A stretch of DNA of 64,000 bases from Palleronia aestuarii (lineage in GTDB: Bacteria; Pseudomonadota; Alphaproteobacteria; Rhodobacterales; Rhodobacteraceae). Where the stretch lies: NCBI RefSeq assembly GCF_003253995.1, contig NZ_QKZL01000009.1, positions 1 through 64,000 on the forward strand, in the 5' to 3' direction. The notes beneath the pieces are model-generated. The model ran no database searches. It saw only the letters and a program-made list of their open reading frames with translations, and was not told where the DNA came from. Below are positions 38,667 to 62,981 of the stretch, one piece after another. Position numbers and translations under genes: made by a program. Numbering within the stretch: the first letter of the stretch is position 1; every line of letters begins with the position of its first letter.

Positions 38667-38854
38667 CGGAAGGTTGCAGGATCGGGCGAGGCGCCGGACG
38701 TTGCGGCGCACGGGGGAGATCGTATGCACGGCTGCTGCACATCGTCCGCACGTTCGGTGCACAGCGTCCGCACGGGCGATGCACGCGCGGTGCACGCCGC
38801 CTGTACGCATGCTGCACGCCCCGTGTACGTCCCGTGTACGAGGTGTGCACATGA
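38663..38854 (+). CDS. possible 63-residue Arg/Cys-rich ORF spanning the 11-bp array
   Basis: An ORF begins at an ATG overlapping the GNAT stop (ATGA at 38663) and ends at a TGA overlapping the chorismate mutase ATG (ATGA at 38851), so it fits exactly between two genes with coupled junctions at both ends. AGAGGTGG lies 5 bases before its ATG. The product has 7 Cys and many Arg, with no recognised domain. Its C-terminal two thirds is encoded by the 11-bp repeats. The frame is also open upstream, so chance cannot be excluded; it could be a leader or coupling peptide. Confidence 0.35.
   Translation: MTEGCRIGRGAGRCGARGRSYARLLHIVRTFGAQRPHGRCTRGARRLYACCTPRVRPVYEVCT
38719..38850 (+). repeat. array A: 12 tandem units of 11 bp, core TGYACG
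   Basis: From 38719 to 38850 the tetramer GCAC or GTAC recurs every 11 bases without interruption, 12 times. Units follow NNNNNNYGYAC with the next unit usually starting in G; examples are GCCCCGTGTAC, GTCCCGTGTAC and GCGCGGTGCAC. The spacers vary while the core is kept, which is unlike a simple microsatellite and more like a row of protein sites on one helix face. The last unit (GAGGTGTGCAC) provides the GAGG of the ribosome-binding site and touches the ATG of chorismate mutase. Confidence 0.9.
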
Positions 38855-39153
38855 ATGACGTCGTCGCCCGCGCCGCGGAACTGCTCGCCGATCACCGCGA
38901 AAGCATCGACCGGCTGGACGCGATCCTCATCTATACTTTGGGGGAGCGGTTCAAGCACACACAACAGGTTGGCCAGCTAAAGGCCGAACACGACCTTCCG
39001 CCCAGCGATCCGGACCGCGAGGCCGTCCAGATCGCCCGGCTCGAAGATTTGGCGCGGCGGGCCGATCTCGACCCCGACTTCGCCAAGAAATTCCTGGCCT
39101 TCATCATCGAGGAGGTCATCCAGCACCATAAGAAAATATCAGGAGAACAATGA
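38851..39153 (+). CDS. chorismate mutase (AroQ class)
   Basis: A 100-residue all-helical enzyme converting chorismate to prephenate for phenylalanine and tyrosine synthesis. Residues equivalent to the E. coli AroQ active site are kept with constant offset: R16, R33, K44, D53, R56 and E57 ([25 protein letters not shown]). It is a free-standing mutase without prephenate dehydratase. The ATG directly follows array A, and the ribosome site of rpsP lies in its last codons, so it is probably co-transcribed with the rpsP genes. Confidence 0.93.
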
Positions 39154-60263: not shown

Positions 60264-60440
60264 ATGAAAAACCCTTGGATGAGCGCCTATCTTTCGGCGG
60301 CGAACCAGATGACGTCCGCCGCGCGCGGGCAGGTCGGGGCGGAGATGAGCCGGCAGCAGACGGAAATGATGCGCGCCTGGACGGAGATGTGGATGGGGAT
60401 GATGTTCCCCTGGATGAGCCAGTCCAACCGCCGCCGCTGA
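60264..60440 (+). CDS. 58-residue Met/Trp-rich small protein
   Basis: ATG at 60264 after CGGAG, stop TGA at 60438-60440. The product has 11 Met and 4 Trp in 58 residues, beginning MKNPWMSAYLSAANQM and ending WMSQSNRRR. The spacing of Met, Trp and Ala suggests one amphipathic helix (about 8-48) with a Met-rich face. There is no signal peptide or continuous membrane helix. It might coat a hydrophobic surface such as a granule or membrane, as phasins do, but no family match is claimed. Array B begins at the base after its stop. Confidence 0.7.
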   Translation: MKNPWMSAYLSAANQMTSAARGQVGAEMSRQQTEMMRAWTEMWMGMMFPWMSQSNRRR

Positions 60441-60572
60441 CGTACACCGGCCGTACACCGGGCGTCGGGCTTACGTACACGGGACGTACCTCCCGCGTGC
60501 AGCGCCCGTGCGGCACGGGTACGGCTTGCGTACACGGCACGTACCGACGACGTGCACCGGACGTACACAGGC
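60441..60572 (-). repeat. array B: 12 tandem units of 11 bp, core CGYAC (plus) / TGYACG (minus)
   Basis: Twelve consecutive 11-bp units, nearly all starting CGTAC or CGTGC on the plus strand, for example CGTACACCGGC, CGTACACGGGA and CGTGCACCGGA. Units 3 and 8 are degenerate (CGTCG, GGTAC) but keep the register. Read on the minus strand the consensus is the same as array A, and the unit TCCCGTGTACG occurs exactly in both. It begins immediately after a stop codon and ends 71 bases before a ribbon-helix-helix gene. Confidence 0.9.
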
Positions 60573-60643
60573 GGCGTACGCACGATTAACCACGGTTGAA
60601 GCCGCGCGCGCCACAAGGGGGAACCGCAACCCGGAGAACCCCG

Positions 60644-61066
60644 ATGAGCCGTCCCACCGACAAAGACCGTGAGCTCGCCGCCCTTCTGGGAAAGTCCCAG
60701 ACCGAGGTGCGGGCGAGCCTGCCCCATGCCTGGGACGCGATCCCGACCTTTCACCAGCCGGGCAAGTCGCGGATCACGATCCGCGTGGATCAGGACGTGG
60801 TGGCGTTCTTTCGCGCCATGGGGATGGGCTGGCAGTCCCGCGCGAACGCGGTGCTGCGCGCCTTCGTGCTGAGCCGGCAGGGCGGCATGGCGGAGGCCCC
60901 GGCACCGCCGCCCGCCCCCGCCCCTGCCCCGGCGCAGGCGGCGCCCGATGGCGGGGTGCAGGGGTTCCTCGCCCGCTGCCGCCGGGTGCGCGAGGTCCTG
61001 CGCGTCGAGGGGATCGAGGCGGATACGGAGCTGGTGGGCAAGATCGTCAAGGCCGCGGAGGGGTGA
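60644..61066 (+). CDS. ribbon-helix-helix protein, BrnA antitoxin-like
   Basis: A 140-residue protein. Residues 41-78 (KSRITIRVDQDVVAFFRAMG and the following QSRANAVLRAFVL) match the ribbon-helix-helix domain of BrnA-type antitoxins. The N-terminal 40 residues resemble BrnA leaders. Unlike BrnA, a Pro/Ala linker (residues 84-100) joins a C-terminal helical segment. No BrnT-like toxin gene is adjacent on either side, so it may act as a solitary DNA-binding protein. CGGAG precedes the ATG at 60644. Array B lies just upstream. Confidence 0.75.
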   Translation: MSRPTDKDRELAALLGKSQTEVRASLPHAWDAIPTFHQPGKSRITIRVDQDVVAFFRAMGMGWQSRANAVLRAFVLSRQGGMAEAPAPPPAPAPAPAQAAPDGGVQGFLARCRRVREVLRVEGIEADTELVGKIVKAAEG

Positions 61067-61691: not shown

Positions 61692-62981
61692 GCGGGACGG
61701 TTGGTGGGGGTGCGTGGAGGCGCGCCCCTGCGGGTTTAGCAGATTTATGACGTATTATGAATTGCCTAACATAGGCGTATATCACGTGATTTTAATGTGA
61801 TTTGTTGCTGACGAGTTTGAGAATTTTGCTGCGGAGCGGCAGATACATCGGAATATCCACATATTCGTGATCTACCGATAACAGTATTTCTCCCTTACTA
61901 TGTCGTAGCTTTACAACTAATTCGAGACGGTATTCAAATTGATGCGAATGATCTGGCGGCTTGATGAAGGAGCAATCTCTGAAGTCGTTTAGGAGGGTCG
62001 CATGCTCGAGATCAGATTCCTTAGATACGTTATATAACTTTTCCCTATACTCTATTTTATCGTAACGTTTTTCACAAAATATCTCTGGATTTGAAAGCTT
62101 CTTATCTGGATATTCTTCAAAATATGCCCCCTCGTCATTCCACCTCAATAACCCAAACAGACGATGCCTGAGCCGTAATGTCTTTGAGATATTGCATATC
62201 TCCTCTTCGAGGATATTGAGAAGCTTATAGACATTCTGGTCATTGATTTCCCAGCAGGCATCATAGCCGGAAACGAACTCTTTGGTAGTCATACAAAAAA
62301 TAAAAGTATTGTCAGCATAAAAATGCTGAATTGCATCTCCGCTAAGCAAAAGACGGCCACGCTGGATATGCCTTTGGCTGAAATGGTATGCATTAAAGAC
62401 AACATACCCTCCAATCCCAGAACGATCCATATCGGTTCGATTCGAACTACCCTGCATAAAGAGGTTCACACTTCCCAATACGTGAGAGGGCGGGTTAGTC
62501 AAAAACAAAGTGTTATTTACCCAATCCTCCGATACCTCCACCAGATCCTCGAAGCTAATTATATAATCGAATTTTCCCTCGTATACATCCTGCATTTCAC
62601 CGTGCTCTTTCCTTCTGTACCAATGCAATGTACCTATTCGAAGGGATTGGGCGCGATCAATTAAGTGCTCTACTCTACAGTATTTGCGAATCATGTGATT
62701 GCTTCAGAGTGTAACAAATGGCGCCCTAAAATCATCTCAACTCGTCGCATAACGGAATGCCGCAATCTTAATTTTTTCAGTCGCCTAAAAAACGCCACCT
62801 CCGTCTGCGCGGTCTTAGACTTTCGGTGCTTCGATCGGTTTACCAAAGCATCCGTTGCAAACGTCATTCATCCCGCGCGCTGCCCATCCACTCTACATCA
62901 TCACATTAACTCGCCCAACCGGGTGCTGCACGCAATTGTCTGCGCCAATCGCTTTCGCCCACTCGCCCTTAAGATGGACAG

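Follow-up and report, generated by a model that had tools for sequence, protein, structure and literature searches.

Phased 11-bp arrays recurring at common positions in Rhodobacteraceae suggest a chromosome-organising system linked to a BrnA-like ribbon-helix-helix protein

The 64-kb window of Palleronia aestuarii DNA analysed here (the whole stretch, 64,000 nucleotides) contains two arrays of short phased repeats. How would a bacterial chromosome use such elements, and which protein would read them? Array B (60441..60572, + strand) comprises 12 units of 11 bp with the consensus C-GT[A/G]CA-NNNNN, and array A (38720..38851, − strand) comprises 12 units with the same core and adjoins a type II chorismate mutase gene (CM_2, 38851..39153, +), to which it lies upstream and antisense. 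A sequence-only reading of the window had proposed that both belong to a family of sites spread over the genome and used by a single binding protein, with regulation, chromosome organisation or segregation as possible roles.

Array structure and the genome-wide family

Arrays A and B lie on opposite strands with the common core C-GTRCA-N5 and a common 11-bp period. GT occupies unit positions 2-3 in all 12 units of array B, with GTRC in 11 and GTRCA in 7; array A, read on the − strand, has GT in 12/12, GTRC in 12/12 and GTRCA in 10/12 units. One unit is common to both, since CGTACACGGGA at 60474 (+, array B) is the reverse complement of TCCCGTGTACG at 38830 (+, array A). Over twelve successive 11-bp steps GTRC is found 12 times in array A and 11 times in array B, whereas 60 random 64-kb sequences drawn from a first-order Markov model reach 2-4 at best; in the real window, periods 7-19 other than 11 likewise reach a best phased GTRC count of 2-4. 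The description of array B as 12 units in phase with array A's core on the opposite strand, sharing one unit with it, is thus borne out (12/12 GT in phase, Markov maximum 4). That the window holds two 12-unit arrays also stands, with the amendments that array B continues into a degenerate 13th unit, GGCGTACGCAC (60573..60583, +), forming a weak 3' end, and that the genome holds 30 clusters and not two. A 142-codon open reading frame spans array B, and an interpretation as a coding repeat was rejected, as neighbouring lineages and non-coding copies give it no support.

A 66-column profile built from arrays A and B (R1) returned 77 matches at E≤1 in the P. aestuarii genome (G000), which fall into at least 30 clusters on 14 contigs with a best match per cluster of E≤1.4e-4; scoring covered 150 of the 2531 candidates from a first look, so that the true number may exceed 30. 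The data thus point to the proposed genome-wide family, with related families in relatives, and the outcome that would have spoken against it, two arrays only and none conserved, gave way to 30 clusters here and to arrays at common positions in relatives. Unit numbers were measured for 29 arrays, of which 27 are loci beyond A and B (L160 covers two adjacent clusters, one of them measured). Ten arrays have 11 units, nine have 12 and five have 13, such that 24/29 fall within 11-13 units; the others have 8, 8, 9, 10 and 15. The arrays are also polar, with one end strongest: units 1-3 approximate CGTACACSGGR, the middle units resemble CGTGCAGC, and the match weakens towards the 3' end. Among the 333 units GT is present in 327, GTRC in 290 and GTRCA in 235, the GT count being favoured because the matrix that placed the unit boundaries had arrays A and B as its training set.

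In the other 13 genomes of the genus (which includes G002, G003, G005, G008, G010 and G013) the same profile found 0-18 matches each. The strongest, at E 1.4e-4 to 1.9e-4, are in G009, G013 and G008, whose RHH loci carry GTGCA arrays; the remaining ten genomes gave best values of 0.004 (G010), 0.013 (G012) and, in eight, no better than 0.02. Outside the genus (G040, G014, G054, G068, G084 and G055), the profile matches Tranquillimonas rosea (G040) 37 times at E≤1, or 33 places after merging, most of the 20 loci inspected there showing one stereotyped element about five units long, and G054 has 21 matches at E≤0.3. Unit number appears alike within a genome and different between genomes, at about 12 in G000, 5 in G040 and 4 in G002, which implies a concerted change of length at dozens of unlinked loci.

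The ribbon-helix-helix gene beside array B

Directly downstream of array B lies a gene (60644..61066, +) for a 140-residue solo BrnA-like ribbon-helix-helix (RHH) protein. The RHH assignment comes from a profile match to PF14384 (BrnA) at E 3.1e-16 over residues 38-75. This protein is probably the cognate binder of the arrays, with array B its candidate operator or loading site, and it thus provides a strong candidate for the single binding protein that had been postulated. Residues R43, T45 and R47 are its putative beta-strand DNA contacts. In an alignment of the family P27 and W30 are among the invariant positions and strand residue 43 varies; arginine at this position accompanies GTRCA in most loci, with exceptions at L070 and L050, a trend seen by eye only, and an automatic tally gave 5/10 arginine loci with the windows of L001, L059 and L062 mis-centred.

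The protein resembles the antitoxin of BrnTA type II toxin-antitoxin modules in its match to the BrnA family. In contrast to such modules, the array-bearing genes examined lack an adjacent BrnT, and a Pfam scan of the four proteins neighbouring the window RHH gene found neither a BrnT nor a partner ATPase. Searching for BrnT by text pattern gave 1/96 loci and was too weak, and Pfam searches of chosen proteins were used instead. These confirmed BrnT upstream of L013 and L010, both of which are without a significant 11-bp array, and identified the upstream neighbours of the array-bearing loci L055, L053, L004 and L101 as a pseudouridine synthase, a pseudouridine synthase, a hydrolase and an ABM-domain protein, respectively. 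A second BrnA-family gene in G054 (L301) shows no lag-11 signal, and the frame upstream of it looks BrnT-like by eye.

Do relatives also carry an array in front of this gene? Lags of 7-25 (19 lags) were ranked upstream of the RHH start in 104 BrnA-family loci, and lag 11 came first in 26 of them (23 after removal of 3 duplicates) versus about 5.5 expected, with a shuffle p≤0.01 in 18 loci (16 distinct). By title or genome kinship the lag-11 loci belong to Rhodobacterales, except L075 (Falsiroseomonas) and L085 (an unplaced alphaproteobacterial MAG). Many Rhodobacteraceae orthologues therefore have an upstream 11-bp array, and its core is specific to the lineage: GTGCAC, GTACAT, GTATGACTC, GTCGGCAT, GTTATGRAAGA, GTAGGAGTC and others. 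Upstream arrays are weak at L005 (p=0.027) and L006 (p=0.15), and no significant one was found at the RHH-like loci L047, L057, L063, L020 and L011, all from members of the family or order.

Two smaller features surround array B. A TTAACC element (60586..60591, +) between the array and the RHH gene is possibly part of the RHH promoter; TTAACC or TTTACC follows the array at many RHH loci (L054, L055, L061, L008, L016) and is also present at the array-less loci L020 and L063, and we take this motif to resemble a CtrA half-site. On the other side, the last base of a 58-residue open reading frame (60264..60440, +, start MKNPWMSAYLSAANQM) abuts array B. It has no Pfam match, and similar frames precede arrays in G009, G006 and G002.

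Conserved addresses and changing cores

The arrays of different genomes occupy common positions. Genes were compared with the 119 proteins that flank arrays in G040, G002, G010 and G005, an orthologue requiring ≥40% identity and coverage of ≥60% of the shorter protein. Of the 54 genes beside 27 G000 arrays, 12 (at 9 loci) have such a counterpart, while none of 65 control genes from the window does. Across genera (G000 and G040) arrays recur at lpd, leuD and valS; within the genus they recur at bchL/bchM, a gltD-like gene, DNA ligase, an MsbA-like transporter, cspA-like genes and chorismate mutase. G002, G013 and G040 also have in common a convergent site whose neighbours were named by eye as der and TspO-like. 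Orientation agrees at the recurring loci, except at one cspA paralogue (L182), and position and orientation are kept while cores and unit numbers differ. Chorismate mutase illustrates this pattern: the gene occurs in 14 genomes, and in 4/12 loci inspected (G000, G003, G002 and G010; G003 by eye) an array lies upstream, all four antisense and with three core types among them. At L182 (G000), where an array sits near a cspA-like gene, the gene next to it appears by eye to be a frame for a ParA-like ATPase.

One address lies inside a gene. In G000, G040 and G002 an array sits in frame between two conserved motifs of valS at the identical place, and arrays at this one place are found in G014, G054 and G068 as well. 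The survey found valS in 60 of 61 family genomes; of 30 loci examined, 24 loops were located, one without a clear end. Array-less loops are mostly 17-19 residues long, with a few of 21-23, array-bearing loops span 22-29, and that of G000 has 49, so that length alone does not indicate an array. As read by eye, the valS cores are GTGCAC in G000, G040 and G054, GATGCACAT in G068, GTTATGRAAGA in G014, TGCAAGAAC-like in G084, CCATATGANTT in G055 and TCCCGTCGGAG in G002. In all six genomes where both could be seen by eye (G000, G040, G002, G014, G054 and G068) the valS core is that of the array upstream of the RHH gene, the RHH loci of G054 and G068 having been retrieved once their valS cores had been read. 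A further RHH gene in G002 (L006) follows a weak array whose core differs from that in valS, and in G049 a short array accompanies the RHH gene but valS has none. G084 and G055 have array-like valS inserts, and no RHH gene was found there with the queries A2, PF14384 and A6, which either speaks against the pairing rule or reflects divergence or gaps.

A second model (R2, core TCCCGTMGGAG) derives from six arrays, of which G002, G010 and G005 contributed five. At E≤0.05 it matched 36 places in G002, 21 in G010 and 11 in G005, and 0-4 in each of the other 21 of 24 genomes; 5 of these 68 matches arise by construction, because those arrays went into the model. The three genomes are those where the matching RHH type was found (L019, L015 and L016), and G012 has 4 weak matches and no RHH match. 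As far as sequence can tell, RHH type and array core co-vary between lineages at common positions.

Possible functions of the arrays

What would a protein do at some 30 such addresses? In the explanation we prefer, each array would be a track of 11-bp sites, spaced at about one helical turn, on which RHH dimers would line up next to one another along a single face of the helix. Binding would nucleate at the strong first units and extend cooperatively over the weaker ones, and the resulting nucleoprotein filament would comprise about 12 dimers in G000 and about 4-10 units in the relatives examined. Array B, as the copy next to the RHH gene, would set the level of the protein itself, whereas the other ~29 arrays would be dispersed anchoring sites that organise or mark the chromosome and not promoter operators. 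Binding by the RHH protein, cooperativity and autoregulation are here inferred, and the organising function is the most speculative part. We give a probability of about one half to an architectural RHH protein with dispersed cooperative loading sites that organises the chromosome, and prefer this role because arrays occur within coding sequence, at convergent sites and, in some genomes, at even spacing.

Several known systems share parts of this arrangement. MetJ is an RHH protein whose dimers cooperatively fill tandem met boxes, which are 8 bp long, few in copy and located in promoters of one pathway; the present arrays resemble these in being tandem boxes and differ in unit length, number and breadth of location. 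MatP/matS, Noc/NBS and SlmA/SBS have tens of short single sites per protein, restricted to or excluded from the terminus; the arrays are similarly dispersed in tens of copies, but are multi-unit and have a lineage-specific core. The closest parallels found are CdbA of Myxococcus xanthus and parS of pSM19035, the latter taken up below. CdbA is described as an RHH nucleoid-associated protein with multiple genomic sites, moderate binding specificity, a proposed role in chromosome organisation and a modest transcriptional effect (PMC7156744). The 30 clusters in G000, 37 matches in G040 and 21 in G054 are likewise many and dispersed as judged by sequence, but each site is a stereotyped multi-unit phased array.

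The main rival, which we consider unlikely though by no means negligible, is a dispersed regulon, in which the RHH protein would be a global transcription factor of MetJ-like logic and the arrays would be operators, or roadblocks and attenuators, of core-metabolism genes. An array does lie upstream of the RHH protein's own gene, and others adjoin leuD, hisB-hisH, ilvC, serC-serA, purC-purS, chorismate mutase, hisC and a gltD-like gene (named by eye and backed by Pfam). This hypothesis would also account for the location of about 11/29 G000 arrays beside amino-acid, valS or nucleotide genes, a raw count that uses some names given by eye. The antisense placement of all four chorismate mutase arrays is in its favour, as are the tandem gene pairs of G040, where 11/13 arrays run against the genes. 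However, gene context in G002, G010 and G005 argues otherwise. Among 27 clear intergenic cases in these three genomes, 8 are convergent and 1 is divergent, versus a background of 6 and 19 of 97 pairs, and the der/TspO-like site is convergent in three genomes. Context is neutral in G000 (4 convergent, 5 divergent and 14 tandem among 23 clear cases, 3 unclear, 1 inside) and nearly so in G040 (2 convergent, 3 divergent and 13 tandem among 18 clear, 1 unclear, 1 inside). Preferential placement upstream of gene starts, as expected of promoter operators, was not found in G002/G010/G005, G000 or G040. By gene calls arrays lie inside 10 of 40 frames in G002, G010 and G005, some of these cases probably being start-site errors, and the valS arrays are internal as well. 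Because arrays lie inside genes and between convergent genes, they are not mainly promoter operators. Of the roles offered by the sequence-only reading, promoter regulation thus appears to fit poorly, and organisation or segregation better. Further matches lie inside predicted frames that were named by eye as an E2-dehydrogenase linker (L238, G002), a phytoene-desaturase-like gene (L261, G010) and uvrA (L262, G005), the last of which may be a natural motif.

Less probable still is a role in segregation or division control, in which centromere-like or nucleoid-occlusion arrays would present their RHH filament to a division inhibitor or to an ATPase of the ParA type. ParB (omega) of plasmid pSM19035 is described as RHH dimers on contiguous 7-bp parS repeats, which lie at three promoters and overlap that of its own gene; it works with a ParA partner, and at least 4 units are needed for full ParA activation (PMC9499535). 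The arrays here, of about 4-13 putative RHH sites, likewise include contiguous short repeats upstream of an RHH gene, but they have 11-bp units at ~30 chromosomal sites, and no ParA was found beside the RHH gene. Spacing is even in three of five genomes. For contigs of known length the coefficient of variation of the gaps is 0.46 in G040 (p=0.0009, 28 arrays), 0.48 in G002 (p=0.002, 32 arrays) and 0.63 in G054 (p=0.03 for 21 arrays at a loose threshold, p=0.11 at E≤0.05), with a random expectation of about 0.86-0.91; even spacing is absent from G000 (1.13, 30 arrays) and G010 (1.34, 19 arrays). Against a segregation role are the lack of an ATPase among the four scanned RHH neighbours and the scatter of sites over many contigs without clustering. 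Counting against the architectural reading are the uneven spacing in G000 and G010 and an array orientation in which no replichore pattern was seen by eye; the GC skew of G054 (20 pieces of 12 kb, 19 from C1 and 1 from C2) is too weak and noisy to place origin or terminus.

That the arrays are selfish or mobile repeats, spread as parasites with an RHH protein that represses only its own copy, is very unlikely. Rickettsia palindromic elements do occur occasionally in frame inside genes, and the in-frame inserts in valS and the E2-dehydrogenase linker, together with a unit number alike within but not between genomes, would be in keeping with such an origin. Yet positions and orientations recur while the core follows the RHH type, and copies without selection should decay and not change in phase. 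Least credible of all is an RNA-level element, in which the repeats would act once transcribed, by folding into hairpins or by recruiting an RNA-binding protein. Self-complementarity of the GTGCAC core is in its favour, but this reading is set aside, as the cores at matching places in other lineages are not palindromic (GTTATGRAAGA, TCCCGTMGGAG) and arrays occur in both orientations relative to genes.

Returning to the chromosome-organising explanation, the presence of relatives' arrays at common spots despite a changed repeat suggests a system that has so far escaped description, and no account of such arrays was found in titles and abstracts among the literature matches listed, a set with subscription papers mostly outside it. 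We tentatively propose a Rhodobacteraceae system in which an antitoxin-derived RHH protein would co-evolve with 10-40 dispersed phased arrays, whose addresses, one of them in valS, would be kept across genera while specificity and length would be rewritten in concert. If true, alphaproteobacteria would have a dedicated chromosome system built on dispersed sites, for which the protein could be named and the sites given exactly, and the genomes would hold a natural record of a DNA-binding protein changing its specificity while dozens of sites change along with it, in place. In valS, which appears to carry a DNA-binding array in its loop (49 residues in G000 versus mostly 17-19 in array-less genes), coding sequence would yield to a DNA-level function. 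Binding, phase, the sites and residue 43 are directly testable predictions.

Two further features were noted. Between array B and a lepA-like frame at the window end, a 300-residue open reading frame without a Pfam match (61795-62694) lies in a stretch whose AT content looks higher than that around it. The array upstream of the RHH gene at L002 (G009, about 1787-1920) has a 22-bp period, in which GATGTGCA alternates with CGGGCC as two unit types.
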